Shown: positions 5,359 to 46,639 of the stretch, in pieces
Position numbering within the stretch: the stretch's first letter is position 1
How the letters are laid out: each line of letters begins with the position of its first letter
DNA from: Saccoglossus kowalevskii
Taxonomy: Eukaryota > Hemichordata > Enteropneusta > Harrimaniidae
Assembly: GCF_000003605.2 (NCBI RefSeq)
Contig: NW_003131860.1
Span: 439,653-487,040, forward strand
Direction of reading: 5' to 3'
Length of the DNA stretch: 47,388 nucleotides
Position numbers and translations under genes: made by a program
Notes under the pieces: generated by a model
What the model was told of the DNA's origin: nothing
What the model saw: the letters and a program-made list of their open reading frames with translations, nothing else
Databases searched by the model: none

Positions 5359-5430
5359 TGCACTGAAGACTCTGATAATGGAACGGATCGATCGGAAAGC
5401 GGGCGCTATTGGCATCACGTGATTTCTCAA

Positions 5431-17037: not shown

Positions 17038-17862
17038 TTAGAGTTCATCTTTTTCTTTGAATGAATCATATTTTCTTTCTGGGGCTTCCTTTCCAGCTAC
17101 CGTCACTCTGTGTAAAACACGCAAACCAACTTCCGTTCGCGGTTTCTGCGATGATGGCGGCGCCCAATGTGCAACAGCCTGATTGTCGGCTATGATAAAA
17201 TCACCAACTTCCCACTGTAAGAAAATTACACAACATCGTAATCGTATTCATAATGTTTCACTGAATGATCATATGTTTAAACGTACTGTTATAGTTAAGC
17301 AATCCACCATTAAGGAAATGTGCGAATGTTTATCACAAATGAATTATTTGAATTAAAAAACAAACAATTACCATGTGTGGGTACTTGAGATCTTCAAGAC
17401 GCCTTTTCAGCACACTAAGTATTTCATTGCGAATCTCAGTTGAACCTTCCCTATCACTGAGAAACTTGGTACCGTCGCCAGTGTCCCACGCAAAAGCCTT
17501 AACAAAGCCAGTTGGTAGAGATAACACCTACAAGAATATACATCACAAATGCATTACATTTGGTTACACGATAGTGACATTTAAGAACTGGAGACGCTAG
17601 TAATACTGGTTGATTCAAGTTATTTTTTTTTGTTCGCGGCGCTTCATAAAATTAATATTTCTGAATGAAATGTAACAAGGATGATTACGATAAAGGAAAA
17701 AAATAAATGTAGAATTTACCTTTTTATTACTTTCTGGGTGTGAATAAATTAATGGATGGTCAACACGTACTTCTTTTCTGATTACAACTAACCATAGCTT
17801 TTCCCATTTACTTAGTTGGGATTCTGACAATCCTTCAACTATCTCGTTCAAGGGCACAAAAT
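17038..17862 (-). CDS. Locus C constant module: exons 2-4 of a TauD-like dioxygenase (KDEL)
   Basis: Exons on the minus strand are 17862-17720, 17527-17372 and 17214-17038. Exon 2 starts with two bases completing a phase-1 codon (GAT with the final g of exon 1) and reads FVPLNEIVEGLSESQLSKWE, ending at HPESNKK. Exon 3 begins VLSLPTGFVKAFAWDTGDG. Exon 4 reads WEVGDFIIADN, then the distal His in AVAHWAPPSS, then the two Arg residues in LRVLHRVTVAG, and ends in KDEL. There is no exon 1 within 5.9 kb upstream. A LINE (18.0-20.2 kb) sits in that intron. Three intact first exons on the same strand with matching phase lie further upstream, and no other exon 2-4 set was found among them. I infer that the module is shared by all three. 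With exon 1a the protein would be 315 aa, with iron ligands H131, D133 and H273. Confidence 0.88.
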
Positions 17863-17999
17863 CTGTAAGGTAATAACACTTTTAGAAATATCCATGGGAG
17901 AAACTAAAGTACTTGATAATACACTATTTTGTTAATAATTATTTTGCGTATGACGTGAATATAACACACTTATAAAGTATCCAGGGGTCTAGTTAATTC

Positions 18000-20215
18000 A
18001 GCTAGGACTAAAAATAAATTATTTTTTAGTATGAAAAACAACCCCACAAATGCTGATATCAAAGCTAAATACAAGCAATATCGAAACATTCTGACAAAAC
18101 TGTTAAAATTGGCAAAAAAACGTTATTTTAAATATAAATTTATTTCCGCAAATGGGAATACGAGTAAGACTTGGATAACAATTAACAGCATTTTAAATAA
18201 ATGCAATAATATGACCACCCCTCAAAGACTTAAATCACGTGATGCTCCCGATAAAGTTTTGACAGGAAGTTGCGATATTGCAAATGAATTCAATAATTTC
18301 TTTGCAAATATTGGCCCTGAGCTAGCTAGAAAAATTCACTCATCTGTAAATTTTAATCACTATCTCACAGGGAATTTCCCGTCGTCCTTTTTCCTTCAAG
18401 CAGTCACAGAACGGGATGTTATGAAATGTATTTGCCGATTAGACCCCAACAAAGCAATGGGACATGATCACGTGCATCCTAAACTTGTAATTGATGCTGT
18501 AAAGTAGATTTCTAAACCTCTAGCGCACATTCTTAACTGTTCTATAGCTCAAGGAATTTTTGCTGACTCTCTCAAACTCGCCACAATCACACCAGTATAT
18601 AAAAAGGGATCTATATCTATTCTATCTGTATTCAGTAAAATATTTGAATCAGCTGTAAATCATCAGCTACTTGGTTTCCTAAATAAGTTCAACATACTCT
18701 TGTCCTCACAATATGGTTTTCGGAAAAAATACAGTACCGCTCTTGCCCTAGTTAACCTTGTTTCTGATATCACTGCCAACATGGGCAACGGTTTTGTTAC
18801 ATTTGGGGGGGGGTGTTCATTGACTTAAAAAAGTATTCGATACTATTGACCACAATATTCTCCTCTAAAAACTTGCTTATTATGGGATAAGGGGTCTCCC
18901 GCTTTCGTGGTTCCGAAGCTACCTAACTAATAGACACCAAACAGTAAACATTGACGGAACTGCATCCACATCCAGACAGATTCAATACGGGGTGCCCCGG
19001 GGATCAATATTAGGGCCTTCACTTTTTCTTCTCTACATACATATTAACCACTCTACTGATGCTTTCAATTTCCGCCTCTTTGCGGATGATACAAATTTAT
19101 TTAAATTCCTGCAAACTAACTCTATTGATCTTTTTAATATTAACAATGATTTTGAAAATGTTGTACAGTAATGCAATACTAATAAATTAACAATTAATAT
19201 AGAAAAAACAAACTATATGATCCTGAAAACCACGCAAAGAAAAGTAAAAGTGGAGGGACAGCTCGCAATCATTGATACGTTGAAAGAGGGCGTGTCAAAA
19301 GCAACTTATCTGGGAGTAACCATTGACCCATGCCAAAATTGGAATTCTCATATTGAAAAGTCTTTGAAAACCATTAGTCCCAAAGTGGGCATTATATCTC
19401 GCATTCGTCATTATGTTCCCAGATCAATTCTCATCCTACTTAACAACACACTTATTCTCCCACACTTAATGTACAGTATTGAAATTCCAGGGTAACACAT
19501 ACCCAACACTTCCTGAACTAGTTCTGCTCTTACAGAAAAAAAGTTGTGCACCTTATCACCTTCTCGCACTTTAAAGAACATTCTGCTCATCTTTTTATCC
19601 AATTACGCATACTTGATATTCACAAACTTTGTAAATTACAAACCTGCCTATTTATCTTCGACCTTAAACACAACAGATATGCACATAGCCTCAATAAGTA
19701 TGTTAATGATTACCCACATTGCTATCCCACAAGTTCAGTATCTAGCGGTAACTTGTCAATTCATGTTGCGCAACTTACAGTTTCACAACATCATTTTAAA
19801 TTTGCTGCAGTAAAACACTGGAATTCACTTCCAGACTCCCTCAAAAACAGCAACAACAGACACAAATTTAAATATGAAATGAAACATTATTTGCTTTGTT
19901 AAATTCCTCGATTACCTCCCATTTCTCTGCATTTTTTTTCTTCTGCATATAAATTCGTTGTACCAGTAGTTCGTTTATATTATTATTACACATAATATTT
20001 TAGTCATTTTGATATCTAAATCATATAGATTACCTTTTAATTTTCGTTACGTAAATTGTAAATTTCTACTTGACAGTCTGGGCCTGGACTGGACTAGTCC
20101 AAATGGACTATTTCCATGGTTCACACCGGAATTACTACTATTGTATTTTGTTTATAAGTTCTGTTATAATGGTCATTCTTGTGAAATAAATAAATAATAA
20201 TAATAAAAAATATTA
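18000..20215 (+). mobile_element. 5'-truncated LINE in the long intron of locus C
   Basis: Blocks in order on the plus strand: a linker (KLAKKRYFKYKF, NEFNNFFANIG), RT motifs with QYGFRKKYST near 18708-18740, a GVPRGSILGPS-like block near 18990-19020, FRLFADDTNLF near 19070-19105, VTIDPCQNWNSH at 19317-19352, and a C-terminus ending KHWNSLPDSLKNS near 19860. Several frameshifts and stops break it. An AATAATAATAA tail closes it near 20190-20215. CR1/Jockey-like by motif. It is antisense to locus C. Confidence 0.85.
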
Positions 20216-23200
20216 AGACCGACAGCGAAAGCCAGCGGTTTTGCGTTAACAAACGCACAATCTACGCTTTTTTTCGCAGATTTTACGTTCGAGATCGAAA
20301 CACTTTGGGCAATCCGTAACGAAATTTGATTCGGGCCAATTGTGCACAAGAACAACAACTGATTCGATCAATAAGGGGCACAAGAAACAGTGACTGGTAT
20401 GCACAAAATCCGCCAAATATCCGTTAATAACTAATCTGATTTCAATGTTATCTTGTATGTACGTGATGCAAAGTGGGGTCTTAAAGATTTGCTTTACCTT
20501 AGCCTCGTTCCCCCACACTGCAAAATTAATAGCCGCGTACGATATGTTATATCTTATACTTTGCAATGGTTACCAAGAAATCAAATAATTCATGGTTTAA
20601 TTCATGAATTCAAACGGAGTGCCTTCAAAAATTCATTCAAACATTCATTTTAGGCACGATCCACTGGAATCACAACCGCAACCACTGACACAGCTAATCG
20701 TTATACTTCAGAATTAGCTATGTCTCATACAAACACAAAGTTCCTTGCTTTCAAATCTCAGGTTCGCGAAATCATGTGCTTTCAACTTTCACCATATGTT
20801 TTGTATCTCCTAACTCTCGTGTTTGGCTACATGACCGTACAATCTTACAATGTATTCACGATAAAAGCATAGAAATATAATATCGTTTCTAAAATAAGGC
20901 GACTTACAAAACTAGTTCGAACATCCATGAACTTCGATTAAAATGAAATAATAACTAGATACTAGGCAAAACATCGGATGTTTATACAAAAATCATGTTA
21001 TGACTGCATGCCAGTTAAACACACAAATAAGTTGTTTTTCTATCGTTATGTCTTATTTTTTCGAGCATCTCTCCGGCAAATCTGTATCCTTACATACAAG
21101 ACGTTTAGGATTCTGGGATATTCATTCGCAAATAGGGTTTAATGTCCCTGTACTTGGAATTGGTATCTTGTTTGCACAGGTTTGCTCCAATTCGAGTGTC
21201 TAATGGAAACAGCCTATACATCATCTCTCGGAGTATAGATATACACAAACACGTCATTGCACATATAAGCCTCCCAATGTTGATCACGGAGATCACGTGA
21301 CGGCCAATGTCGCTATTGTCATTTTTGTTTGAAACTGTTCAACACTTTATCATTAATGCACACAAGCTGTGAATTGCACAGGCTGTTCGTACCGCTATGG
21401 GCTGCAAGACTGCTTTTAAAATTTGTTCTGTATCTGACTTTGTTTTGCTAGCACATTAAGCACAGCTTTATAGAGACGGAGTTTTCTGCACAAAAGTAAT
21501 AAAAATAACAACAAACGATAATCTGGAATTAAGGAAAACCTAACAACTCTACAACTCGTAAAACCACCATTACATTCCTTCGATCTATGCAACTGGTTGT
21601 CAGAGAAATCAAAATTTGGTATAGTATACGCATGCGTTCAAAGTCAGGCGCTTTGCATTCTGGGCATATATATTAATATGGCCGCAATCCGTCTCTTGAG
21701 GGTCAAAAACAACGCTAATGATATGCACGCTAATCTGCAGGTGTGAATCATTTATTTACCCGTGAAGAGCACTGTTTTAAAGAAATATGGTCCGTTTCCA
21801 GCCTGGTCTATAGAGGGGCTGTGATGAAAGTAATATATACAGACACACTGCGAACATCATGATATAAACAGAAAGTAGTCGGCTTCTATTAAAACAGACC
21901 ATCAGTAATATATTGGTGTTTTTTGCACACTGTTATTTCACAAAATTCAACATGGTCACTAAACGTCATTTTTCGCACAAACGACATTCATTTTGAGCTA
22001 TTTACCATTGCTTCTAGATCATATCTAATAAAATCATACCCAACATTTTATTTATAACATTTTATTTTACATATAGTGAACAAATCATACGATTAAATAT
22101 TAACCTAATTATGCTTGTGTATAATCATATAGACTGGTAGCTCAACTGGTGAACGTGATGTTACAATATATATGTATGAGATGTTAATGACATTTTGATG
22201 ATGAAACACTAACAATAACTATTTATCAAAGAACAATTCACATACTCTAATGAAAGGTATACATTTATAACGGATTGAGTGCCAGATATTATCCCCGCAC
22301 AAAATTGAGGGCAACTTCTCATATTCAGAATTAAATTCGAACTCGCATGTAGAAAAAACATGCCACGTTACTATAAGCAGACACGCACCACATTTAGCCA
22401 CATCGCCCGGACACTAAATAGTTACTCTATGTTGTCCTCAAGTTGCCCCATACAAACAGATTCAGATATTACTTTTAATTTTTGATTAAAAGGTTTGTCA
22501 ATTTTGATTAACATTTCATGTGGGGAAGAGCAGACTGTAGAAAATCATATTGTAGATGCTATCAACAGTTGACAATGGAGCGCAAATAGTTAAACCGGAT
22601 TAATGCTTCATTTCAGGTTTAACCTAATACGATAGATTTGGGCATTCAAGAACATATTATGTAAATGCTTCTGTACGCCGATGCTATTTGTCCATTAACC
22701 CGTGATATCTACCGGCTATTTAATTCTTTTTAATCAAAGTATGTAGTTTATCTGCATAAATGAACTATTATATCATCATTAATTGTTTATATGAACATAT
22801 GTATGCAGTAACTTTTGATAACGTCCAACTTAAACATAACCACAATATTGATTAACCCTTGACTTCAAATACATTGATCATTTTTTGAAATTAAAACGGC
22901 GCAACTGTACAATCTGTAAATATACTATTATCAAGAATCAATATTTCCCAGCTATATAGATGTGATAAAGTCATGAGTGATTTCCTTGGCAACTGCATGC
23001 CCGAACATGCAGATCACAGCCACAGATTATTAGGTGAATTGTTTATAGAATTTAATTGCAATTTGCTATGTCATACAATAACAAATATAATATGTTTTCC
23101 ATTGTTTGTTTTCCACATCACATCGGTTGTTTAAGTCCATGTTTATGGAGACGAGCATATATCAACAATTACATATGCATTCATGTAAAAATATATGACG

Positions 23201-23796
23201 CAACGTCGTTGCATCGAAGGACAAGGGTTTCCACTAACTTTCTCATAGCAAGTTTGTTTACTTTCAGTTGATATTTCGTACTCCAAATAAGAAAAACGGA
23301 CATAACATTTCTCTGTATTTGATGGATATAATACTGCAGACAATTCCGATGTTAAAATATATTTCACATCAAAAATGATGAATGATTTCCATGGCAACTG
23401 CATGTCCGAACATTGACATATGCTGTGTGTTATTATATTTAGTGTACAGTTAAAAAGAGTGTGTCTTTATAAATTTACCATGCCACGTGATAAGGAATAA
23501 TTGGTGTTACGGTTTTAAAAATCATGGCAGTCATTTAAACTCTCGATTGTGTTAATATTGACAGTATTGGTAATGAACAACACATTGTATAGAAACATTA
23601 TTATATTCAAAATGACTGGGGAAAAGGGGTCTGAATATTTCGTCTCAATTGAAATTATTGGTTTCTTTCGTTCTAATATATAAATTTATCCACTAGAAAA
23701 AAACACTGAGAGGAGAAACATATTGATATGCGTCAAGAACAAGAAAAATCGAAAAAATGATCAAAAAGTTTCATTTTTTTAACTTGTGTTGGTTAC
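20216..23796. other. Intron between the LINE and exon 1a
   Basis: From about 21300 onward this is the first part of segmental unit U1, with a partner at about 28900-30360. A minus-strand open frame at 20246-20566 has paired cysteines (CFLC, CPKC), but I recognise no family. No dioxygenase exon was found here. Confidence 0.5.
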
Positions 23797-24268
23797 CTGT
23801 TTCAGCCTCTTTAGAAACGTTTATAACATGGAAGATTGAATAACTGCATAAATTTGGCAAATACAAGCAATCACTATGCCATGCTCCAGTTCCCACTGCA
23901 CGTAAACCTTCCGAGTCATCATTCGACACGCGGTATACGTCACGTAATGGCGACTTAGGATGTTGCGTGAAAAATGACGACTCCAGATCTCCGAACCACC
24001 TGCCGATTCCAACATGCCTGTTCGGTGAAATATTATGTTGATCTTTGAAAATCAACAGACGGTGTTCGGTCACGTCTTTTTTAATTTGTTCGATCACTTC
24101 TTCAGCTAGATGATTTCCAATGTCAATGCCACGAACTTCACATCCCAACTTGACAGGTGTCAAGTCATAAAACTCACGTGAATGCACCATGTTCACCATA
24201 GTACAACAAATGATGACGAATGTTATGCAGAATGCACGGAGACAGATCGTACTTCGAGGTTGACTCAT
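23797..24268 (-). CDS. Locus C alternative first exon 1a
   Basis: Open from ATG at 24268 to donor g|GTAACC at 23796, coding 157 codons plus one base, identical in length and phase to exons 1b and 1c. The signal peptide region is MSQPRSTICLRAFCITFVII onward. It is followed by GCEVRGIDIG, RLLIFKDQHN, WFGDLESSFF and the iron motif H131-S-D133 in GAWHSDCLYL. The exon ends SKEAET, so splicing to 17862 would give SKEAETDFVPLN, a good match to the TauD pattern at this point. It is the first exon nearest to the constant module. Against exon 1b it differs at 15 of 127 mature residues. Its own conserved upstream box lies at 24333-24341. No stop or frameshift is present. Confidence 0.85.
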
Positions 24269-24332
24269 GTTAACGATGTACTGGAGTGCTCATAGAACTT
24301 GATGCGGTTAATAAATATATAGATAACACGTA

Positions 24333-24341
24333 TGAGGGCGT
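24333..24341 (-). promoter_or_regulatory. Conserved upstream box of exon 1a
   Basis: Plus-strand TGAGGGCGT (ACGCCCTCA on the gene strand), 65 bp upstream of the ATG. The same word sits 65-75 bp upstream of exons 1b and 1c and of the 36.47-kb relic. It may mark a core promoter or 5' UTR element. Confidence 0.5.
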
Positions 24342-24342
24342 A

Positions 24343-26842
24343 TTATACTAAGTATATACATTCATTATAAATAATGCTGCTAAAACTAATAGCGTCACTA
24401 TGTATTAAAAAATAAAAATGTTTTCCTGTGTTTTTTGAAATTAGATATTCTTTGTTATCAGTTATATTGCAGGTCAAGTGAATATAATGTACTGTGTGAA
24501 AGGAACGGAAATAAAAGTGACGTAAATGCAACTGAATGAACGTGTTTCTGTGATGCGGTTTTACCATATTGAAATATTATATATTGTGGATAATAATACA
24601 GTATCATGTATGTGGATTTTCCGCAGTTAAAAAATGAGCTGAATCACGTCAGGTTAAATTATTTTGAAAAAAAGTCTCATTTGTTTGGCACATTCGTTTG
24701 TTAGTATGAGAACACATTTTGTTCAGACGTCATGCAACAGAACCCGCCAATGAAATACAGTATTTCAGAGCCTACACGTGGCAAAAAAGTAACAATTTTG
24801 CAAAATGCACATAACCATTAAAATGTATCTAAATAACTAAATATTAGTGTTACGAGTTAGAGAATGTTTAATATTCTCATGAACTTATTGCTTGTTATAT
24901 TTTATACTATGTTACCGTGTCATATCATATCCAATGTAAATATTATATGATACATTTAAATAAATAAAAACTTTCAGACATTTAATTTCACATGGTATAG
25001 TAAATACATCCTGCTCTAATATATATCAGTCGTAGTCAAATAGGCATTGTTAGGAATCTATGAACTATACTAGATAAGTAACACTGATACTTTCTGTGAC
25101 CTATTGTGTTGGGTAATTGTCTATAAATCACGAGTTCTTAAAACTGTTTGAGATATATAAAAAAAATCACTGCCACACGGTCTGAATGAGCCTCTGCTAA
25201 AACAACAACAATAAATATGTGATAACAATATAATTGAGCAACCATTATTTCATATATATTTCTTATTCATTAACTAATTAATTAACACCTACAGAATAGT
25301 ATTCTCCGGACGTTTCTATGCTCTAGAACTTGATCACTGTTGCCCATAGACTTCTGAAATGCTTCTGAAAGCATATTGGGGACAATGAGAACTGACGCAC
25401 CTCACTTTCATATTTTTGATTCGTCGGTTAGTTTTGCGGCCATCTTTCATTGAAGTTTAATAGAAGTGGCCACATTGATTTTTTCTGAGGGTCTAGCATT
25501 CCATATTTGGTTAATTTGTCCAATATGACATATGGGCTACCTATTTCACGAATAAAAACGTAACTGATCACGTCAATTTTACCTTCAATATTTTTCTCCG
25601 AATATGGCTGCTCATTAAAGGTTGCAGAACTCTTTATGATTGATCTCGTGTTTATTATAAACAAAAAGTAGTTTTATTACAGATTTATTCAATTATTTAA
25701 AATATTGTTACATCTTTATACTGAACTTCTTCAGAATCTAAACAAATAATTCGGAACAATCTCATGATTTTTCAGCTATCTTGGATTTTGCTAAAAATGG
25801 ACGAAATGTGAGGCATTTATTTTTAAATACCACTTTAACTAGTCAACTTGACGTTTGGCATGTATATGGCCATAGCTTCTTACGGAAAAAAATAAATAAT
25901 ATTGATCAGTCACGTGTTTCGCACAAAATACCACAATCTTGGGCATTTGTTTCTTATGAGTGTTTTAACCAGTCATCATGATATTTTGCCTGTAGCATTT
26001 ATGGCTGAAGTTTACAATAAAAATATCAGTCTTGGATTTGTGGGAAAATGTCCATAATTTGGGCCATTTGTGTCTAAAGAATGCTTCAACTTGCAAGTAT
26101 TATCAAAACATCTTTTAAGAAAAACAACATATATCATTGGGTACATTTTATGACATTATCGGTTGATTATTTCATAAAATGTATCTAATGGGCTCGATTT
26201 GGACCCGACAAAGGCTTTAATATCCAACATACATCACACGTTATCACACAAGCAAAGTATTGACGTTCAAAACCATGTTAGCTATTAGCTTTTAATTTAA
26301 CTTAATATAATTTGGCGTACTCAATTAGAGTTCCAGTTATGTGCGTACTATAAGGCCCAATGGCATCGACTGCATTTTTCGAAATTAGTTTCTTAATTTT
26401 CAAGTTTACTTCACATATATTACTGAAAACATTTAAAAATGAATGATGTACCATATGTCAACATGATGAAAAATTTCCTATGGCAACATACCCGTATTAC
26501 GGCCTTTATTATACCCAGTGAACAGACAGTTATTATAACAGTTAACAGCTTTGTTTTAAAACCCATGTTGATATGTTAAGCTCGAGTTTATGTTGATAGC
26601 ATTAAATTCGATAACACATTGTTTGGAAACGAAATTTTCTTTCTTTATTTAATGTTAATGTTTTATTTTTTTCTGATTCATTTTGTTGAATTATACAAAT
26701 ATATCCAGTTGAAAAACTTCCAAAAAGAGATATTGTTATGTGTCAAGACAAATCGTTATACATGATGAACGCCTAAGAAAAAGACGATGATGTAAAAAGA
26801 GAATCTTATTAGAAATCCCTATTTATTAAATGTGTCAGTTAC
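24343..26842. other. Spacer between exons 1a and 1b
   Basis: Holds the right part of U1, including a minus-strand LINE tail at about 25430-25590 (REIGSPYVILD matches CEIGSKYIMLQ in U2). The rest is AT-rich and without gene signals. No exons 2-4 seen. Confidence 0.5.
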
Positions 26843-27314
26843 CTGTTTCAGCTTCTTTAGAAACATTTATAACATGGAAGATTGAATAACTGCAAAACTT
26901 TGGCAAATACAGGCAATCACTATGCCATGATGTGGTCCCTATTGCACGTAAACCTTCTGAACCGTCATTCGACACGCGGTATATGTCACGTAATGGCGAC
27001 TTAGGATGTTGTGTGAAAAATGACGACTCCAGATCCCCGAACCATCTGCCGATTCTCACATGTCCATTCGGTGAAATATTATGTTGATCTTTGAAAATTA
27101 ACAGACGGTGTTCGGTCACGTCCTTTTTTATTTGTTCGATCACTTCCTCGGGTATAGGATTTCCAATGTCAATGCCACGAATTTCACACCCCAACTTGAC
27201 AGGTTTCAAGTCATAAAATTCATGCGATTGCACCATGTTCACCACAGCACAACAAATGATGATGAATTTTCGACACATTGCATGACGACAGAACATACTA
27301 CGAAGTGAACCCAT
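26843..27314 (-). CDS. Locus C alternative first exon 1b
   Basis: Open from ATG at 27314 to donor g|GTAACT at 26842; 472 nt, phase 1. A signal peptide (MGSLRSMFCR start, KFIIICCAVV core) is followed by HEFYDLKPVK, GCEIRGIDIG, RLLIFKDQHN, WFGDLESSFF, iron motif H131-S-D133 in TSWHSDCLYL, and ends SKEAET. It has no downstream exons of its own before exon 1a, so use of the module at 17038-17862 is inferred (intron about 9 kb, skipping exon 1a). It could instead be an orphan duplicate, but an intact frame, donor and upstream box argue for function. Confidence 0.8.
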
Positions 27315-27388
27315 GTCAACAATATACCGGAATGCCAGTAGATCTTGATGCGTTCAACGAATATTGATAACTTGTGAATAATAAATAT

Positions 27389-27397
27389 TGAGGGCGT
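27389..27397 (-). promoter_or_regulatory. Conserved upstream box of exon 1b
   Basis: Plus-strand TGAGGGCGT, 75 bp upstream of the exon 1b ATG, in a region otherwise only partly alike between the exon-1 copies. Confidence 0.5.
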
Positions 27398-27399
27398 TT

Positions 27400-28880
27400 T
27401 TTATGTGAGTGATTTATTCAATATAAAACAATGACTTCAAATACAGCTTTTCAGATATATGTTGATATGTATCGTATCATGTCTGTATCATTTCTCTTTT
27501 ACTATATTATCTAACATGCTATGCATGTGACAACGTGAGTAATGTTTTGTTTTAAAGCTTTACAGATTTTACAAATTAAAAATATTGCGCGGTTCACCAG
27601 CCCAATTTAACAATAACACACAATACATATAGTAGCGACTCGTAAAACTAGTTTTATTTTTATTACTTCGATTTTCCAGTTGATAATTCTGACTTCACAT
27701 GAAGACATATGCTTTACATTTCTCTGTATTGTATGTATACACTAGGCTAACAATTAGACATTTTTAAATATAATGTTCTTAAAAATGAATTTTACCTTGT
27801 CAAAAATATGAATGATTTCCATGGAAGCTGCGTGTCTGATCATGACTATATGCAGTCAGTTTATGCAGCCAATTAGTGAATTCAGTGAATAATTAAACAA
27901 ACATGTATTTATAAATTTGTCATGTCATGATAAATAATAATTGGTGACCCTTTATTTGTTTTCAACGTCATTTCGATGAATCAAGCTCTTGATGGTAAAC
28001 CATGCTTCTGTTTCCTGTCAAAATTGGTTTGTGGGTACATCTGTTTACTATGTAGAAAGCGCCGTCTTGAAAACTGTCTACCAGTTGTCAATTTTGCAGG
28101 GCAGCAGCTCAAATTTCACTACTTCAAGTTTATGCATAAATTAACACCCAGGCTAGTTGTCTGTACGATTGTTGTAACACTGTTCAACCAAAAACAATGC
28201 CCCGACGGCGTTTTGAAGATAAATACATTGTCAATCATTTGTGAAAATTTCAAAACAAAAGGTCAAAGCGTCTAGGAGCTATTTTTTAAGAGTTCTGGGA
28301 TGTGCACTAAAAAGAAGCTGAGATAATTGCTAATTTGTATAAAAATTCACTCAATAAGAAGTTTGCTAATGCTCATAATTAAAATGGCTGTAACAGTTCC
28401 AAATTTAAATCTATTATCGTTTTGTTAAAAGTTAAATATAGTGCATAATATGGAGATCCCGTTATTTCTTTTTTTCACCATGTTTCTTTTTTATTATTTA
28501 TGTACAGCCTTGCTAAATCTTGCTAAGCATTCAAAAATGAAAATGTTTGCACTTGTTATCTATATTTTAAAATCGTTTTTTGAGTATGTTCCACTATTCA
28601 CAATTCTACAAAATTTTAACAGTCTATAGCCAAGACTGTTTGGATAATAAAAAGCAAAAAACGAAATTCACTCCCAAGTGCCCACAAACATGCATCTCTA
28701 CCTTAACCGGAATCTAAAAGTTAGAAGCAAGTAATCCTTCAGTCGGATACCCCAGTCAGACTGAATAAAGACTTCCCTACCCTATCGACAATTCCCCTTA
28801 ATTCTACCACCAATATTAGAGAGTAAACACGGTTGGAGAGATGAGGTTAGTTGTAATTATGTGTTATTAAATTATTAAGA
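27400..28880. other. 5' flank of exon 1b
   Basis: Related to the flanks of exon 1c (38580-38760) and of the relic (36540-37080). Shared words include ACATATGC, ACATTTCTCTGTATT, ATGAATGATTTCCATGG and TATTAGAGAGTAAACA. Open frames at 27976-28275 and 28441-28629 (plus) look like chance. No gene called. Confidence 0.5.
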
Positions 28881-31800
28881 AAAAATCAACTGTCTTCAAG
28901 TTGTTATTGTCATTTTAGACTGAAACTGTTTTCAACACTTCACTTCACGTGAATGACATTGAACAGAACGATCGTAACGTAGCAGGCTGCAAGACTACGT
29001 ATAGATAGTGAAACTACTAAAAAACAATAAAAAACAGCAACAAACAATACTTGAGATAAACCGGGAACAACACAATTTGTAAAACCACTATTATCTTCCT
29101 TCGACCTGTGCAATATGCAGTATCGTATTCATCCATATCTAAGCATTCAAAAAGACATGCAAGCGGAATTCCCCTATATGACGTGACAGAAAACAAACAG
29201 AGTAAATGTTTGCAGACAAAAAGGCGGCGTTACATCATAGTTATAACGCTCCATGAATGTCTACTAGCAGTGACAAAGTGAAAGTAATATATACATACAC
29301 TCTGCGAACTATAAGGTGGTCGGCTACCGTCGGATTCTATTAATTCCTACAGTGTGGTGTTCACAAAATCCAACATGGTTACCGAACGACATTTCGTACA
29401 AACCATTCATTGTGGAGCTATTTCGGATAAAATGCTATTATCTAATAAAATGATGTTATCATTTTATTTATATGTATGCGTATTGAATAATATTTGGATG
29501 ATGAAACAGCAGCAATAACTAGTTATTCAAGAATAGTATACATAGTCTCGTGAGTGCAAAAACAATTCTATACGTTTGAGTGCAAAAGAACAGTCACTGA
29601 ATTTTGTCATCAAGTTTGAACATACAAACAGTTTCGGATATTGCTTTTAGTTTTTGGATTAAAAGGTTTGTCAATTTCCATCATTTTTTTGTGAGGAAGA
29701 GCATGCTGTAAAAAAATCATTTAGTAGAAGCTGTTAACACTTGACAAAGGCGCGCAAAGAGTTATACCGGATTAGGTTTAACATAACACTATAGATTTGC
29801 ATATTAACGAAAAAATTATTATAAGTTTTTCTCTACCTCGATAACATTTGACCTTTAACCTATGATATCTACTACTCTTTAATGTTCAAAATCAAAGACT
29901 GTAGTTTGCCTGCATAACTGAACAATTATTTCACCATTACGTGGATGTACAAGAACATAAGTATGCAGTAACTTGTCAATAAATATTGATAACTTTTTCC
30001 TTAAACATAACCGCAATATTTATTGACCTTTGACTTCAAATACATTAATAATTTTGTTGTATTATTATTGAAATTGAAACGGCACAAATGTACAATATCC
30101 AAATATATTATTGTTAACAAATCAGTATTTCCTAGCTATATACATGTGACAATGCCATGCGTGATTTCCATGGCAACTGCAAGCCCGAACATGCAGCTCA
30201 TACCGACAGATTATTAGGTAAATGGTTCAAAGAATTTATATGTTATTTGCCATGTCATACAATAAAAAATTAGAGGTGTTCCATTGTATGTTTTCAACAT
30301 CGACGCGATAGTTTAATTCAATGTCTATGGAGAAGAGTGGCAGGAATGAGTGACGGACTGAACAGAAACTTCACTCTATGGATGTAATTATATTTTACTA
30401 TATTCACCCTGCCTGAACAAAATGACCTGAAAATGTCTATTTTGTTTCCGTTAAAATTAAAATTTTCCCGTGCTTTTAAAAATTAGATATACCTTGTTAT
30501 CAGTGATATTGCAGGTCAAGTGAGTATAATCTAGTGTATAAATAGAACGGAAATAAAAGTGACCTGAATGCAATTGAATGAACGTGTTTCTGCGATGCGG
30601 TTTTAACATATTCAAATTTTATATATTGTGTATAATAATAATATATATATATTGTATGTGCATTTCTCGTTATAAATAAATGAGATGAATCATGTCAGGA
30701 TTTTGAAAAAAGTTTGGCACACTCGTTTGTTTGTATGAGCCAGTGACTGTGAACACTATATTGTAATCATCAAAGACAATTAATATACCACGTGATGAAG
30801 TGATTGTAGCTTTATTTACTGCATAAACAATTGATATACCACGTGATGAAGTGATCGTACTTTTATTTTTTGCATATATAATGGTATACCACGTGATAAA
30901 GTGATTGTACTTTTATTTTCTGCATATATAATTGATATACCACGTGATGAAGTGATTGTACTTTTATTTACTGCATATATAATTGATATACCACGTGATG
31001 AAGTGATTGTAGCTTTATTTACTGCATAAACAATTGATATACCACGTGATGAAGTGATTGTACTTTTATTTTCTGCATATATAATTGATATACCACGTGA
31101 TGAAGTGATTGTACATTTATTTTATGCATATATAATTGATATACCACGTGGCGAAGTGATTGTACATTTATTTTATTTTATGCATATATAATTGATATAC
31201 CACGTGATGAAATGATTGTATTTTTATTTACTGCATATATAATGGATATACCACGTGATGAAGTGATTGTCCATTTATTTTCTGCATATATAATTGATAT
31301 ACCACGTGACGAAGTGATTGTACTTTTATTTTCTGCATATATAATTGATATACCACGTGATGAAGTGATTGCATTTTTTTCTGCATATATAATTGATATA
31401 CCACGTGATGGCATGATTGTAAATGTATTTACTGCATAAACTTTTGATATACCACGTGATGAAGTGATTGTAGATTTATTTACTGCATATATAATTGATA
31501 TATAATAAATCATCAAAAACCCGCCAATAAACTAGTAGTTCAAAACCTGCACGTGGAAATAAAACAAATGTAACAATCTTACAAATATTTCATTACAATA
31601 AATGAACATAAGAACAAAATGACAGTTTCATAAGTCGGAGAATATTGTCATATTCCCATGAACCTAAGCCTTTACTTTCGGTATGTTAACATCTCATACC
31701 ACATGCATTTATAAATACTAGGATACATTTCAAATGTTTGTTTCTTATGTTAAATGTTTAAAATACGAGAAAACACATCCTGCTCTACATTATATCAGCC

Positions 31801-32370
31801 ATGATCAAACAAGTCTTTTTAAAAGTTATGAACTACTTTAGATAAGTAACACTGATACCTTCTGAGATCTATTGTGTTACGTGATTGTTTACAAAGCATG
31901 AGTTCTGAAAATTGATGGACATTTTGAGATACATCGCTCTCCATGAAAACATAATTTAATAGTTTGAAAGAAAGAAGAACACGGCCGCACGGTCTGATTG
32001 AACCGCTGCTAAAACAACAACAATAGATATGTGATAACAATATAATCAAGCAACCATCTTTGTATATATATTTTTTATTAAGTAATTATTTAACACCTAC
32101 ATAGTAGTATCCTTCCAACGTTTTTTGTCTTCCTAAAACTTGATCATCGTTGCCCATCGACATTTAAAACTCCCGAAAGCATATTGGGAACTATGCGATC
32201 TGATGCGATCTGATGATCTAACTTTATTAAATTTGATTTGTTGACTGGTTTTGCAGCCATCATGGATTGACGTTACATGAGAAGTGAACTTTTTTTGAGG
32301 GTCTAGGCATTATTTACTTTGTTGTAGCATTATATATTTGCTACCTATTTCACAAATACAAACGTTAGTG
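28880..32370. repeat. Segmental duplication unit U2 (exon 1 lost)
   Basis: Partner of U1. Homology runs to about 30360 and resumes at about 30460 with sequence that lies beyond exon 1 in U1, so the exon-1 part has been deleted. U2 also carries a 51-bp satellite absent from U1. Confidence 0.7.
30770..31506. repeat. 51-bp satellite, about 14 units, one CACGTG per unit
   Basis: Units contain ATACCACGTGATGAAGTGAT followed by a T-rich part and TGCATATATAA. CACGTG starts at 30789, 30840, 30890, 30941, 30992, 31043, 31094, 31145, 31201, 31252, 31303, 31354, 31402 and 31453; spacing is 51 bp except for 50, 56 and 48. As 51 is divisible by three, both strands stay open over long spans without being genes. 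Confidence 0.95.
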
Positions 32371-32666
32371 GTCACGACACACGTAGATTTAGACTTATTT
32401 GAGTTGTAGATATTAATGTCATGCTTGTCAGCGTAAAACTCACGAATATGTACAATTTTGCGCAAACCTTTAATAGAGGGCGCAATTACACACATACCAT
32501 CTGCGTAGCTCAAACTGTTTATAACATTGTCACCAATAAAACTACCACATGGCATGCTATTGAGTGTTACACTGAGATTATCCATATAAACACAAAACAG
32601 TCCTGGAAACATTACTCCTCCCTGTCGAACTCCAATGAAAACATTGTAAGATGGTACTTCCCTCAT
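32310..32666 (-). mobile_element. LINE reverse-transcriptase fragment
   Basis: The minus-strand frame has FIGVRQGGVMFPGLFCVYMD, then INSLSYADGMCVIAPS, which are RT motifs B and C; the catalytic YADD reads YADG, so it is dead. The motif style (GVRQGG, VYMD) differs from the GxPQGS type at 14.6 and 19.0 kb. Only part of the RT is present. It lies at the edge of U2, and its tail is shared with U1. Confidence 0.8.
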
Positions 32667-32669
32667 CTA

Positions 32670-33827
32670 ACACAGTAGACGCCTGTTTGTAAACAACGAC
32701 ACGCTATGGCCATTTGACGCAAGCGCAGGTGACAACACCTCCGCTTGAAAGATGATTGGCTAGTTTGTCTACAGTCATACAAGAATGTCCTGGGTAACAC
32801 TACCATACTGGCACACCATAAACCCATACACACACTGGTAATCAGAGTGTAATACCGTTGCCACGAGTACACGGATCTCAAGATTTATTAACAAATCTGT
32901 GGAGTAACTACGTATACATAGATGAAGGAAATTGAAAACTAGTAACAATAGTACATAGAATAGTGAAAACTGCGATCCCTGTAAGCGGTACACAAGCCGT
33001 ACAAAAAAAAAACAGAAATAAAAAGCCGAATAATGACGGGATTAAAAACATTTGGAAATCTGCACACGCCGCATGCTCGAATGCATCTGAGAGAAGATGG
33101 CGGGTTTCACCCCACGCTATGCATGCAATGGTACATATACGTATATGTTTTTTCTTGTTTGTATTTAAATATTTTTTTTTTATTTCGTTTCAATAATATG
33201 AACATACAACACACAAAACATTACATTACATTTTGATCTGGTATAACAATTATTATGTACGAGTATGCTCACTGCAATAAAACAAATAATGTTGTTACTC
33301 TGCCTAATAGCTACCTCGGATATTAAACTTAATGAAAGGAGTGAAAGAACACAAAGCTGCTAAATGCTACGTGGCAACGCGTAGACTGAAGAAACTACTG
33401 TATGTCCAATTACACGCAAGCCACCGCGGTATGCGGGGAGCGCCCTCTAGGAACCATGTAAACATCCCTTTCCTGCTATCCTCTGGTCGGACATCCGGGC
33501 ATTGTCACCGGTTGGCAACCCTCGCGGTGAAAACAAAGGCCGAAAACTCGCAGAAAACGGTACTTAGTGATGGTTGTTGAGACTCCCCTGAACAGTGCAA
33601 CAAGATTAGCCCTACGTGTGTAACATATATAAATTTGGTTGTTCAGGATTACTTCAAAGTTGAGTTTGTATTGTTTTCTCGAATTTTCACCGGCTCGACC
33701 GGTGTTCCACAGCAGCGCGGGCGCGCACAGAGCCCATAGAAATGCATGGTACAGTGGTGCGCATCTTAGCAACGTGGAACGTCTGTGACGTAGCTCCGCC
33801 CCTAGACTGGCGCAGTCGGGGCGATTA
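32670..33827. other. Non-coding stretch before the assembly gap
   Basis: A segment at about 32697-32755 (ACGCTATGGCCATTTGACGC and on) resembles one at about 3652-3705 in gene A intron 1, so it is a dispersed repeat. From about 33320 the DNA is clearly less AT-rich, with several CpGs. No gene identified. Confidence 0.4.
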
Positions 33828-34132
33828 NNNNNNNNNNNNNNNNNNNNNNNNNNNNNNNNNNNNNNNNNNNNNNNNNNNNNNNNNNNNNNNNNNNNNNNNN
33901 NNNNNNNNNNNNNNNNNNNNNNNNNNNNNNNNNNNNNNNNNNNNNNNNNNNNNNNNNNNNNNNNNNNNNNNNNNNNNNNNNNNNNNNNNNNNNNNNNNNN
34001 NNNNNNNNNNNNNNNNNNNNNNNNNNNNNNNNNNNNNNNNNNNNNNNNNNNNNNNNNNNNNNNNNNNNNNNNNNNNNNNNNNNNNNNNNNNNNNNNNNNN
34101 NNNNNNNNNNNNNNNNNNNNNNNNNNNNNNNN
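33828..34132. other. Assembly gap (305 N)
   Basis: A run of N. Frames that cross it are meaningless. The flanking bases are GC-rich (CTCCGCCCC on the left, CCCCCGAG on the right), which may explain the sequencing failure. Confidence 1.
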
Positions 34133-34700
34133 CCCCCGAGAATACTGCGTACCGAAGGAAATGTCATATTTGCAGTTGCGCGGGGTGTACTTGAATTTGG
34201 CCCTCGCCGACTTCATCGTATCATGAACAGCGCCCCCACTTGGATTGCCAGCAAGATGTCACAATCAAAAACACTCACGTGCAAAGTTGTGCACATTCTT
34301 AACAATGTCATTCCATCCGGGGACAGGTTTGAAAGACGCAAAAGCCTTCTTGTGCACGAATGTTAAGTCCGTCGCTTTTTTTTAAGAGAGTTGACAATAT
34401 TCTCGTAATAATCATGAATATTGCTTTCATGGACATTATTTTGACAGTTAACATGTGCACATGTGTAATGGTTTATTTGTACCATTGTGATTTTAGACCA
34501 GTCAACACGCATAGATCGCTTCTTGCAATTCCCATTAATTAAAGCGCGGTGGTCGTCGCGCTGCGCATGTGCGACATTTGTGTTGATAAACGTTGATTTT
34601 CCCACAATCCAATACGCTCTTGAAATGGAAAGTATGAGGTTTGACCTGGGCGCGACTTTCACTGATTACTGCCGGTGATTCCTTCGATACCTTCCAATCA
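34133..34700. other. GC-richer stretch after the gap
   Basis: Continuation of the CpG-containing block that flanks the gap. Small open frames on both strands lack recognisable motifs. It could be a promoter-like island or an old repeat. Confidence 0.3.
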
Positions 34701-36240
34701 CCTAAAAATACCTAATTAAAGCTTGGAAACGTCTCAGTTTGTACTCGTCGATCTGCGCAACAGTCGAAGTCGCCATCTTTGTTATATGAGACCCATATAT
34801 CTCGCGCATACGTGGCGCGACAACTACCGCCCTTTAAGTTGCATGATTTCAAGCTACTACACTGGTAGGTAATGATCATAGGCATATGATATGATGTAAC
34901 ATAATAATAAGAAATGTTAATATCAATGATTGCACAATATGCAGTATTAGAAGCAATGCAGTGATCTAGCCATGAGGTCGTATGATGTGCTTCACTCACA
35001 TATGTAAAGTTGTCACCCGAATTGTCTAGCATTTCAATGTCCGCGATTCGCAATTCGACAGTATTACAGAAATCACGCAACCCGTTATCGAAATAGAACT
35101 GCGAACGGGGATCAGTATTTCAATTGCCAATAAAAAGAATATTTGGCGTACTACTTTCCTGAATGACAGCGTTAAGATTATTCATTGGAAGATAAACACA
35201 CAAAATAAAGAGCCTATTGTTGTCCTCTGAAGCTATATCCAAACTAAGCAATCTCTGGTCAATAAATGTTCTGATTTTCCATAAGATAACTGTTCCTTCA
35301 TGGGGCAACCAACAAGTATACAACTGCTTATATCAATGGCCGAAACATCAAATTCATATCACTTTGAATCGTAGATTAGTATCAAAGGTTGCCATTTGTT
35401 AGTCAATATTTCTGAATGAGGCAAATATCACAGTCATTACATAGTTTATTGGCAATTGGTCTACTAGACTTTATAGCCCTAGAGTTATACGTTAGAATGT
35501 TAAAGTGCTGCAATAGTTACGACGAGGAATGTACTTGCCAATACTCCTTCTAGTCAGGCACTCGTTTTTATGATTGTATGAAAATTAGGCACTGTAGTTG
35601 TGATACAATGTGAATAGTATGTACTAAACTTAGTATTAAGACGTTCATATTGGTTGATATATATGTATCTAGCATTTCAGCTGTAGTATCAGGACCCAGT
35701 CTGGACACGAAAACACTCATTCTTTTATGCACCTCAGTCGTCTGGTCGGTGGATTTTCGAGTAGCAATCAAAATGTTATGATCACCTTTCATGGTAGCGA
35801 GAATTTCATACTGACACTCAGGATGTTGCGAATTCGGATTGGTGGACACTGACAGACACGGCTTGTTTTTAAGGTCACGAATATCTTTAAAACATCCATT
35901 AAACACATGTTCATCACACCTACACGGTCATAAACGCCTAAATGTCACATTTCGATTGGCTATTGTCCTTCAGCAACAACATGAATTTTGAGAAGTCTCT
36001 AGCAGCAAAACATGGAACCGATTTCCTGGAGCAATACGATGATATCTTGTACATTGTTAAGTAATTTCTTAGCACCCCGTCGCTTGATCAAACGACGAGA
36101 GCTATAGTATCCAAAATGTTCAAAGAAAAGGCAAGGCAAGTTTACAATAACATCATTTGGCAGGATATCATAAAAGGAGTATTTGCTGTCGTGACTCGAT
36201 CTAATTGCATCCGAATCTAGGGCGGAGTCAACCATTGTCT
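34700..36240 (-). mobile_element. Decayed LINE: ORF1 and endonuclease parts
   Basis: Minus strand, in element order. An ORF1-like part at 36235-35568 includes SVFVSRLGPDTTAEMLDTYI. It is followed by an APE-type endonuclease at 35323-34712: GTVILW, LFILCVYLP, LFIGN, then DNSGDNFTYVSEAHHTTSWL followed by DHCIAS, typical of LINE endonucleases. Stops divide it. The RT is not attached; the RT fragment at 32310-32666 on the same strand could be a remnant of it. Confidence 0.7.
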
Positions 36241-36424
36241 TTGGAGCTACTCATGGTCGATATAGTTTCAAATATTTTGTTTCTAAAACGTTCAAATCAA
36301 TCAAGTTCACTTTGAAAAAGAGATACGCCATTAAATGTTCCACAATCACATCAGGGAAGGTCATTCATTGTAGACCAAATCGAGTACAAGATTGGTTACG
36401 ACACGTCCTACCAACATGCGTTGA

Positions 36425-36540
36425 CAACTTTTATCGGCGACATATCATACTTCGAGGTGGATCCATATCAGCGATGTACTGGAATGCCAGTAGTTCTTAA
36501 TGAATTCAACTAATATAACCTAATATAATATTGAGGGCGT
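36425..36540 (-). pseudogene. Solo 5'-end relic of a locus C first exon
   Basis: On the minus strand, ATG at 36466 opens MDPPRSMICRR, matching MGPPRSMICRH of exon 1c, then hits a stop at once and homology is lost. The upstream box TGAGGGCGT is kept at 36532-36540, and the flank beyond it resembles that of exons 1b and 1c. So the promoter and start survived while most of the exon is gone. Confidence 0.75.
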
Positions 36541-37990
36541 AGTCTTACTATCTTTCATCACATCAGTAATTGTCCTTATATTTTATTTTATTCAATATAA
36601 AACAGCAAATTCAATGATAGGTTTGTTATCAGTGTATATGTATCGTATCATGGAAGTATCTCTGTTCTTTGTCATTTTATGCATTGAATGTGATTAGAGC
36701 TTTGTTTGAAGTTTATACTCAGTTTTGTGTAACTAGTTTTCATTATTTTGTACTTCCAATTGATATTCCTGACTCCACATGAATACATATGCTTCACATT
36801 TCTCATGTACACATTACGCTATCATATAATTTTATAAATTTATTGCTTTCAAACATTTACCATGTAAAATATATGATGAATGATTTCCATGGTAGTTACA
36901 TGTCTGATTGCATGACCATATGGAGCAAGTTAGTAGAATCAGTGAATAGGTAAACAGAACATGTGGGATCTGCTTGCCTGACTGCATAAGAACTTTTCTA
37001 TCAATTTTCCTAAAATTTACCCTTATTATTAGAGAGTAAACATGGTTGGAAAGATGGGTAAGTTGTAAGTATATGTTATTAAATCTTGCTAATAAGAAAA
37101 AAAAAACAATTGTATAAAGTTCTATAATCGCGAGTCATAAGGCCGTCATATACTTACAACTAAGCAATATTTTAATGTGAATACTAGTAGTTGAAATAGC
37201 GTTCCATTTAGAAGAAAATTGTCATTTTCAACACAGTAACCACAAAACATTGAGATTTAAATAATATTCATTCCAAAGTCAGGTAAACAAAATAACCTAA
37301 AACCTAATTATATACATTTTAAATAAAACCTGCTGAAAGCCAAATTCTGTCCCCAGAATGTGATCTAAGGGAGATTCGTCAAGAAAACATAAAGTGTAGC
37401 TCACCCACGGGATTAAATGCAAATGCGCAATTTGAGAACATCAGTATTACGAGAGATTGTTACATGAACAATTTCAATCAATTATAAAAAAAAATAGTAT
37501 GCACAAATAAATGCAACATACATGAAAATTGAACAATCGAAATGATGACTATGCTGTGCAATGTCAAGTGTAATATTCATCAGTCGTTTTAAGAAGGCAC
37601 CATTTCAGCCGCACATAGCCATGTGCAACATAACGATAACATTATATAATGCAACCAACACATGTGCACTAATCAGCATCCTTCATATAGAGTTGCTTTA
37701 TTTTAAATAAAACGATGATTATATATTAAGCTCTAGTGTATGTTGATTTAATTGTATTAAATTGGATAACATGTTTTTGGGAACGAAATTTTCTTCGGAT
37801 ATGGGGTAGAAGAATCTGTAGATTTTTACTTTGTCTACTTTGTCATTGTTTTCTGATTCATTTCGTGGAATGATACACATGAGATAGTGTTATGTGTCAC
37901 GAAAAATCAGTAATACACAATCAACGCCAAACAATTGTTGTAAAAATATGATGTTATAAAAAATCTTCATCTATTAAATGTGTCACTTAC
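36541..37990. other. Spacer between the relic and exon 1c
   Basis: The left half is related to the 5' flank of exon 1b (27400-28880), the right part to the DNA just 3' of exon 1b (26600-26840). No exons 2-4 and no other gene seen. Confidence 0.5.
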
Positions 37991-38462
37991 CTGTTTCAGC
38001 TTCTTTAGAAACATTTATCATATGAAATAATGTATAACTGCAAATCGTTGACATATACAAGCAATCACTATGCCATGCCAGGGTTCCTGTTCCACGTTGG
38101 CCTTCTGAACCGTCATTCGACACGCGGTATATGTCTCGTAATGGCGACTTAGGATGTGGCGTGAAAGTCGACGACTCCAAATCCCCGAACCATCTGCTGA
38201 ATCTCACATGCCTTTCCGGTGAAATATTATGTTGATCTTTGAAAATTAACAGACGGTGCTCGATCACGTCCTTTTTTATTTGTTCCATCACTTCCTCAGG
38301 TATAGAATTTCCAATGTCAATGCCACGAACTTCACATCCCAACTTGACAGGTTTCAAGTCATAAAATTCATGCGATTGCACCATGTTCACCACAGCAAAA
38401 CAAATGATGATGAATGTGAGACACAATGCATGGCGACAGATCATACTTCGAGGTGGACCCAT
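37991..38462 (-). CDS. Locus C alternative first exon 1c
   Basis: Open from ATG at 38462 to donor g|GTAAGT at 37990; 472 nt, phase 1. A signal peptide (MGPPRSMICR start, LTFIIICFAVV core) is followed by HEFYDLKPVK, GCEVRGIDIG, RLLIFKDQHN and WFGDLESSTF. The iron motif is H131-S-D133 in LAWHSDCLYM, and the exon ends SKEAET. Against exon 1b there are 22 differences in 127 mature residues; 12 of them fall in the 30 residues 121-150 around the HxD motif, against 10 in the other 97. Reaching the constant module needs an intron of about 20 kb. No nearer exons 2-4 on this strand were found. An intact frame after this much divergence suggests selection, but an orphan exon cannot be excluded. Confidence 0.78.
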
Positions 38463-38529: not shown

Positions 38530-38538
38530 TGAGGGCGT
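38530..38538 (-). promoter_or_regulatory. Conserved upstream box of exon 1c
   Basis: Plus-strand TGAGGGCGT, 68 bp upstream of the exon 1c ATG, followed by AATCTTACTATCTTTCATCA. Nearly the same text follows the box at the 36.53-kb relic. Confidence 0.5.
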
Positions 38539-41640: not shown

Positions 41641-41654
41641 GAGGAGATCCTGAT

Positions 41655-42368
41655 ATGATTATCAGTGGGACAGCAATTGGTGGTATTGGAAAAGGAACAA
41701 CCCTTAAGCCACTATTTATTCTACAAAAACGAGTTGTGAGGCTAATTTATTGGTCAATTTTTTATGATCATTTCAAACCACTCTTTAAAAACATAGGTAT
41801 ATTAAATATATATGATTTTTGTAAATTACAAACAGGAATGTTAATTTTTTATCTGAAAAATAATAATCATGCGAGATGTGTGCTAGATTATTTTCAACCA
41901 ATTCAGCACTCGCACAGTACAAGATCTGTGCAAAACACAAACTTTTTTGTAGAAAGGAAACGTTTAACTCAAAGTCAACACAGTGTAATTTATAGTAGTA
42001 CCTTATTCTGGAACTCATTGCCAGTGTCATTAAAAACTATCACCTCTCGATACACATTTAAACAAGGTCTTAAACAGTATCTCTGTAATAAATAACCCAG
42101 TATTGACTTATGTAACAATTGTCACTCTATTGACTTTTATGACATATTTTTGACCAGTTTTAAGTATTCTCATATACATTTGCATATTTGTAAGAATATT
42201 TCTGATAATTTGACTAGTTTATAATTAGGGTAGGGACATGATGTTTTACTAGCTCTTATTGAGCTATTTGTCATGTTCCACACCATAATGACAAAGCATT
42301 ATGTATTTAGCAAGTACCCTATTGTATTTACTTTATGGTGAAATAAAATATACAATACAATACAATGT
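41655..42368 (+). mobile_element. LINE C-terminal fragment with 3' tail
   Basis: An open frame to 42095 reads LQKRVVRLIYWSIFYDHFKP, then FKNIGILNIYDFCKLQTGML, then FWNSLPVSLKTITSRYTFKQ, the usual C-terminus of CR1/Jockey-like LINEs. About 250 bp of 3' UTR follow, then an AATAC-repeat tail at about 42347-42368. The 5' part is missing. Same broad type as the LINE at 18.0-20.2 kb. Confidence 0.85.
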
Positions 42369-46600: not shown

Positions 46601-46639
46601 TACATTCCGCCATCATTAAAAAGAAAGACTGAACTTTGA
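43629..46639 (+). CDS. Gene D: ER-luminal TauD/TfdA-like Fe(II)/2OG dioxygenase (KTEL), four exons
   Basis: Exons are 43629-44097, 45463-45602, 46085-46243 and 46457-46639; all are GT-AG with phases 1, 0, 0. From the first ATG the protein is 316 aa; starting at the next Met (43647) gives 310 aa, matching gene B. The signal core is WVMFILCCSVM. Motifs by 316-aa numbering: GCEVRGIDIG, RILIFKDQHN, WFGDLESSFF, iron ligands H130 and D132 in AFHTDCLYLP, distal H272 in AVAHWAPPSS, R288 and R292 in LRVLHR, and C-terminal KTEL. Exon 2 has HPLIYSHPGSNEK, and exon 3 has FEWDRGKSKTRR. It is closest to gene B and all key residues are kept. AATAAA lies at 46827-46832, in the same place as in gene B. ER location is inferred; the substrate is unknown. 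Confidence 0.92.
44985..45120. mobile_element. Diverged partial TIR element in gene D intron 1
   Basis: Contains GAGATCTCGTTGGCTCT and CTCGTCCGTCATCGCCTCCATTG-type words (compare CTCGTCATCGCGTCCACTG in the gene B intron 2 element). The match is weaker, and only one half is clear. Confidence 0.35.
45796..46029. mobile_element. TIR element in intron 2 of gene D
   Basis: Inverted counterpart of the element at 8296-8533. Ends read CGCCAATGGCCGCCGATATC and, in reverse, CGTCAATGGTCGCCGAGATC. The element occupies the same intron position as in gene B, so it was already present before the duplication. Confidence 0.65.

Follow-up and report, generated by a model that had tools for sequence, protein, structure and literature searches.

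The window analysed here, a stretch of 47,388 nucleotides from the acorn worm Saccoglossus kowalevskii (contig NW_003131860.1, positions 439,653 to 487,040 of the forward strand), carries several copies of a gene of the TauD/TfdA family, among which the one hereafter called gene C is of particular interest for the organization of its first exons. The origin agrees with the mitochondrial contig of the same assembly (C4830, 17,037 bases, of which 14,900 were read), where cox1 was identified by profile and the remaining genes by eye from their translations: atp6-cox3-nd3-nd4L-nd4-nd5-cob, nd6 on the opposite strand, then trnF and trnL-nd2-trnL-nd1, cox1 being inverted. An inverted COX1 and a transposed ND1 or ND2 are described as distinguishing S. 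kowalevskii from Balanoglossus (PMC3121625), and nd5 and cob as neighbours in this species (PMC2697986), so that the order points to this acorn worm or a close relative. On the minus strand, and in the order of transcription, the first exons 1c (37991..38462), 1b (26843..27314) and 1a (23797..24268) precede a single set of exons 2-4 (17862-17038). This shared set consists of exon 2 (17720..17862, minus strand), with the phase 1 acceptor TTACAG/AT (the slash marking the splice site), exon 3 (17372..17527, minus strand), with phase 0 on both sides, and exon 4 (17038..17214, minus strand), which encodes the distal His, an RxxxR pair of arginines, the terminal KDEL and the stop codon, the latter overlapped by an AATAAA at 17039. 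The sequence from 1a through exon 4 (17038-24268, minus strand) constitutes a complete four-exon gene, while 1b is devoid of its own exons 2-4 and none have been found for 1c.

Each of these first exons is 472 nt long, equivalent to 157 codons plus one nucleotide, and encodes a hydrophobic leader together with an HxD motif (HSD); 1b and 1c contain no stop, frameshift or indel. The donors of 1a (ACAG/GTAACC), 1b (ACAG/GTAACT) and 1c (ACAG/GTAAGT) have ACAG/GTAA in common and are all of phase 1, in register with the common acceptor of exon 2, whereas the later junctions between exons 2 and 3 and between exons 3 and 4 are of phase 0. Once joined to exons 2-4, every first exon produces an open frame of 315 amino acids ending with KDEL. 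The preliminary description of this DNA, which reported three intact exon 1 copies upstream of one set of exons 2-4 on the minus strand, is confirmed in the exon length, the leader, the HxD motif and the phase 1 donors.

By their profile scores, the predicted joined proteins belong to the TauD/TfdA family PF02668 (84.7 bits with 1a, 83.5 with 1b and 90.5 with 1c, for a cut-off of 27); when the exons alone are compared with the TauD profile, 1c has the highest score (44.0 bits, the other two having 38.6 and 37.2). The protein joining 1a to the exons of gene C matches 33 distinct sequences of Protein Data Bank (PDB) chains at E<=0.01, the best with 2.1e-10, including 3swt, 1oij and 1gqw. In three alignments the HxD motif, the distal His and the RxxxR pair correspond to those of a TauD (3swt) and of AtsK. 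The HxD motif and the His that faces, by count, H81 of AtsK are encoded in exon 1, while the distal His and both arginines are encoded in exon 4. The HxD...H residues correspond to the iron triad and Arg to the 2-oxoglutarate arginine of these enzymes. The 11-residue hydrophobic cores of the leaders have a mean Kyte-Doolittle value of 2.85-3.17 across 1a, 1b and 1c which, in combination with the C-terminal KDEL, suggests that the joined products may be secretory proteins retained in the endoplasmic reticulum (ER); they are also predicted to be 2-oxoglutarate-dependent dioxygenases.

The census of the family indicates that the window contains six intact exon 1s rather than three, with a seventh, that of gene E, lying just beyond it. 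The preliminary description had correctly recognized the three copies that lack or share downstream exons (1a, 1b and 1c), and had overlooked the exon 1s of genes A, B and D, which possess their own exons 2-4. A tblastn search with the four exons over 187 kb (rows retained at E<2) retrieved five complete four-exon genes, namely A, B, C (with 1a), D and E, and showed 1b and 1c as intact first exons without partner exons 2-4; the cluster thus totals seven intact exon 1s, while exon 2 and exon 4 are each present five times. As all of these copies of exons 2 and 4 belong to the five complete genes, 1b and 1c remain as a surplus of two first exons. Nucleotide profiles made for each of the three downstream exons (2, 3 and 4), applied to the window and 80 kb to its right, also identified five sets only (next best match, E=0.59), and found no relics of exons 2-4 between 17.9 and 43.6 kb, where the best match had E=1.2. 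We then extended the comparison to the whole draft assembly (572,110,611 bases in 4830 contigs) with protein searches for exons 1, 2 and 4, exon 3 being confined to the local searches. Exon 1b had 10 matches, of which seven are the intact copies of the cluster, one is intact on contig C3943 and two are relics; for exon 2 and exon 4 there were at least five matches each, counts that represent lower bounds, every one of them inside the cluster. These whole-assembly searches yielded neither an exon 2 nor an exon 4 to spare for 1b or 1c. The absence of another exon 2-4 set between the first exons, as initially stated, is thus consistently obtained by tblastn, nucleotide profiles and whole-assembly protein searches, and in the proposed search of the window (exons 2-4) and of the other contigs (exons 2 and 4) all the matches obtained were those of the five complete genes.

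The stretch from 1b to exon 2 contains zero N. The only N run from 1c to exons 2-4 is an assembly gap of 305 N between 1b and 1c (33828-34132), and the smallest exon 2-4 set of the cluster, that of gene C, measures 825 bp. The possibility that 1b is a complete gene with unseen exons is ruled out by the tblastn, profile and whole-assembly searches together with the N-free stretch leading to exon 2; given the gap of 305 N, the same possibility is less firmly ruled out for 1c. Hence, 1b is without its own exon 2-4 set in the assembly, and 1c very probably so.

The complete paralogues surrounding gene C differ in their C-terminal tetrapeptide. Gene A (248..5415, minus strand; exon 1 at 5415-4896) ends with KDEL, gene B (7688..9951, minus strand; exon 1 at 9951-9501) with KTEL, gene D (43629..46639, plus strand; exon 1 at 43629-44097), which is inverted relative to B, with KTEL, and gene E (57669-61085, minus strand), lying outside the window, with KKEL. 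Genes B and D form an inverted duplicate pair (7136-10052 and 43551-47163) with about 87% identity over 1.8 kb plus exon 1. The eighth intact exon 1, labelled X (contig C3943:597253-597711, minus strand), has 55% identity to 1b and is closest to gene A in the exon 1 tree. No exons 2-4 for X were found in positions 582001-612000 of its contig, where the 10.5 kb directly downstream are N; X was consequently dropped as another orphan first exon. A different contig, C2894, shows three matches to TauD-domain exons in a row (8679-8861, 13346-13501 and 20366-20497, minus strand), two of which have an internal stop, and perhaps represents another tandem cluster.

Self-comparison of the window reveals that 1a, 1b and 1c have in common a cassette comprising the upstream region, exon 1 and the early part of the intron. 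A truncated fourth cassette, the relic 1d (36436..36837, minus strand), retains the upstream region and the start of the leader, after which unrelated sequence follows, and is barely detected by the exon profile (E=1.3). Moreover, the block 21492-25575 has a diverged copy at 29020..32379, in which the stretch corresponding to exon 1a (23155..24409) is reduced to 116 bp (30337..30453); the cassette was either inserted into one copy or deleted from the other. Further relics of exon 1 are present at 10518-10686 (plus strand) and, with stops, at 13002-12708 (minus strand). Taken together, the relics and the exonless block copy show that cassettes carrying a first exon are born and die in this cluster, a pattern shared with UGT1. 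The region also contains, between 1c and 1b, a tandem array (30776-31502) of a 51-bp unit in 14.2 copies with a higher-order period of 260 bp. By eye, broken frames at 17965-19902 (plus strand), antisense within intron 1 of gene C, resemble a non-LTR (long terminal repeat) retrotransposon reverse transcriptase with its FADD motif, and short frames at 32310-32666 (minus strand) and 41643-42095 (plus strand) resemble fragments of reverse transcriptase.

The regions upstream of 1a, 1b and 1c resemble each other beyond the box previously noticed before each of them, which corresponds to the exact octamer CGCCCTCA which on the minus strand precedes the ATG by 72 nt in 1a (24333..24340), by 82 nt in 1b (27389..27396) and by 75 nt in 1c (38530..38537). 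The same octamer is also retained by 1d (36539), at a distance of 73 nt from what is left of its ATG; its other copies in the first 62 kb are limited to 5819 (minus strand) and two near 61.8 kb (plus strand). A sigma-70 promoter scan, which uses a bacterial consensus, was uninformative.

The best reading of these data, and on balance a probable one, is that gene C is a variable-first-exon gene, in which several intact first exons stand before one constant set (subject, for 1c, to the 305-N gap). A small cassette formed by the upstream region, the first exon and the start of intron 1 would have been duplicated within a TauD/TfdA-family gene, and each first exon would be transcribed from its own upstream region. 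Since a first exon offers a donor and no known acceptor, it would splice to exon 2 at 17862, the next family acceptor, while 1b or 1a, when included in a longer transcript, would be skipped as intron. The shared use of exon 2 by transcripts starting at 1b and 1c would then follow from ordinary splicing, with introns spanning about 6 kb from 1a, 9 kb from 1b and 20 kb from 1c. The proposal of the preliminary description that every first exon splices to the shared module is partly supported by the surplus of first exons, their phase, the open frames, the boxes, the lack of exon 2-4 relics and the cassette history, all of which fit it; it is weaker than claimed for 1c, whose omega is 0.74 (see below), and the reading is firmer for 1b than for 1c.

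Selection on the first exons was evaluated with a tree based on the 125-codon core of exon 1, which had the topology ((1b,1c),1a),(B,D),(E,(A,X)) with a support of 0.92 for the pair of 1b and 1c, using a purpose-written codon model of the GY94 type with F3x4 frequencies. Omega was 0.164 for the family, 0.217 for 1b, which evolves like the family and looks like a working exon (with limited power), 0.257 for 1a (twice the log-likelihood difference, 2dlnL, versus omega of 1: 4.04) and 0.478 for the clade of 1b and 1c with its stem (2dlnL 4.32). Comparison with 20,000 neutral simulations, in which 1c was given its 34 changes, indicated that this exon has accumulated two changes at the 49 family-invariant sites when 7.5 were expected (P 0.008), and that its joint neutral P is 0.0005; a simpler test at the invariant sites yielded P=0.036, 0.0038 or 0.081 depending on the definition of derived changes. 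For 1b, one change at family-invariant sites was observed versus 3.8 expected (P 0.07).

Several results weigh against the variable-first-exon reading and have to be considered together. The omega of 1c, 0.739, lies above that of the family (2dlnL 15.0) and is indistinguishable from 1 (2dlnL 0.42), so that this exon may be either relaxed or diverging. That of 1b differs from 1 with a 2dlnL of 2.86 only. The simulations are modest when taken singly: an intact frame has a neutral P of 0.20 in 1c and 0.44 in 1b, replacements number 20 versus 24.2 expected in 1c (P 0.07) and nine versus 12.3 expected in 1b (P 0.06), and the lack of indels in 1c, when 2.6 were expected, has P 0.07. The exact CGCCCTCA is absent upstream of the complete genes B and D, and the octamer could be a promoter element or merely reflect shared descent. 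Furthermore, these tests gauge constraint and not use, and the constraint could predate the loss of exons 2-4 once belonging to 1b and 1c. The number of copies, the frames with their phases and donors, the history of the cassettes and the partial constraint are read directly from the DNA; the promoters and the splicing that would bring 1b and 1c into use, like the activity and the ER location of the products, are what we infer from it.

Part of these results would be expected if 1b and 1c were silent or decaying partial duplicates, generated by copying the cassette without exons 2-4 and still open in frame because of youth in the case of 1b or luck in the case of 1c. The elevated omega of 1c and the appreciable chance that both frames escape stops under neutrality fit this alternative, as does the abundance of dead exon 1 relics in the cluster (1d, 10518-10686 and 13002-12708). 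We nonetheless regard it as rather unlikely, for there are no indels in the 471 exon bases compared in all three pairs of 1a, 1b and 1c, while the first 100 bases of the adjacent intron show 3-6; additionally, 1c spares the family-invariant sites and has the top TauD score of the three, the donors of 1b and 1c are intact and the omega of the orphan clade is under 1. An error in the assembly, by which 1b or 1c, or both, would derive from complete genes having exons 2-4 lost, collapsed or hidden in a gap, seems improbable. The assembly is a draft in 4830 pieces that has the 305-N gap between 1b and 1c and other N runs nearby, one of 5.4 kb between D and E and that of 10.5 kb just downstream of X; yet the stretch from 1b to exon 2 is continuous, even the smallest exon 2-4 set is larger than the gap as written (its real size may differ) and the whole-assembly searches returned neither an exon 2 nor an exon 4 lacking a place in the five genes. 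Least plausible of all, and very improbable in our opinion, is that 1b and 1c are young pseudogenes that were once complete and recently lost exons 2-4 by separate deletions, with past constraint still visible. The blindness of the constraint tests to past versus present use and the raised omega of 1c would agree with such a history, which nevertheless demands two independent clean deletions that left no detectable remnant of exons 2-4. A common ancestor that was already an orphan would be simpler, given the sister relationship of 1b and 1c and the absence of the set from each.

Under the variable-first-exon reading, the products of gene C would be three 2-oxoglutarate-dependent dioxygenases of 315 amino acids that enter the ER and are retained there by KDEL, sharing the C-terminal half with the distal His and the Arg pair and varying in the leader and the N-terminal half on the HxD side. 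The differences among 1a, 1b and 1c do not support the idea that the alternative halves diverge mainly at the substrate pocket: 10 of the 29 sites near its expected position differ, versus 18 of 96 elsewhere, which is not significant (p=0.067) for a site window picked after viewing the alignment; control pairs gave p=0.13 (B-D), 0.69 (A-X), 0.67 (1a-D) and 0.64 (E-A). Nor is the substrate side wholly contained in exon 1, as the preliminary description proposed, given that the second arginine of the RxxxR pair, which in TauD binds the sulfonate, lies in the shared exon 4. The broader scenario, in which promoter-linked first exons allow one gene to make three ER-retained TauD-type dioxygenases, with a UGT1-style exchange of the N-terminal half that evolved independently, in a deuterostome that is an invertebrate and in an enzyme of unrelated fold, and 1c moving toward another substrate or cell type, is advanced tentatively, as something a little short of an even chance.

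The joined proteins can be compared with bacterial TauD and the AtsK alkylsulfatase, with which they share the Pfam family PF02668 and the aligned HxD, distal His and RxxxR. In contrast with these enzymes, the acorn-worm protein is split over four exons; the bacterial proteins are not known to have a signal peptide or KDEL. In animals, TauD-domain genes mark the larval apical cells of cnidarians, for which taurine is a proposed, unproven substrate (PMC12225738, PMC4300403). The likeness with these genes considered here is that of the TauD domain, and the passages available from the two studies describe no multi-first-exon arrangement. A multi-first-exon gene of the TauD fold was also not found in a literature search conducted mostly by title and abstract opening and largely outside subscription journals.

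In clustered protocadherins, too many in their variable exons (more than a dozen) to resemble gene C closely, a variable first exon is likewise followed by a constant part; these are cell-surface adhesion proteins and not enzymes, according to the passages seen of one study (PMC1885805). The same passages describe the variable-first-exon layouts of UGT1, GCNT2 and UGT2A as specific to vertebrates, with birth and death as the process that drives them (PMC1885805). The closest parallel is with vertebrate UGT1 (UGT1A), which resembles gene C in its layout, in being an ER enzyme (as is predicted for the product of gene C) and in the birth and death that leaves relic first exons, as far as those passages indicate (PMC1885805). 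The two systems differ in fold and chemistry; UGT1 is membrane-anchored and has about a dozen first exons, whereas the product of gene C is predicted to be soluble with KDEL, and its gene has three intact first exons and is flanked by complete paralogues. The likeness is known here from the genome; were the locus expressed, it would function in the manner of UGT1. Should the splicing be real, the UGT1-type layout of variable and constant exons would have arisen independently outside vertebrates, in an iron/2-oxoglutarate oxygenase of which one active-site half is fixed and the other exchanged. First-exon duplication would then look like a general and cheap route to isozymes, and gene C would offer naturally occurring chimeras with which to explore the contribution of exon 1 to substrate choice in the TauD-like enzymes of animals, for which no substrate is yet established. 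The layout is known from vertebrates, while the enzyme class and the host would be new.

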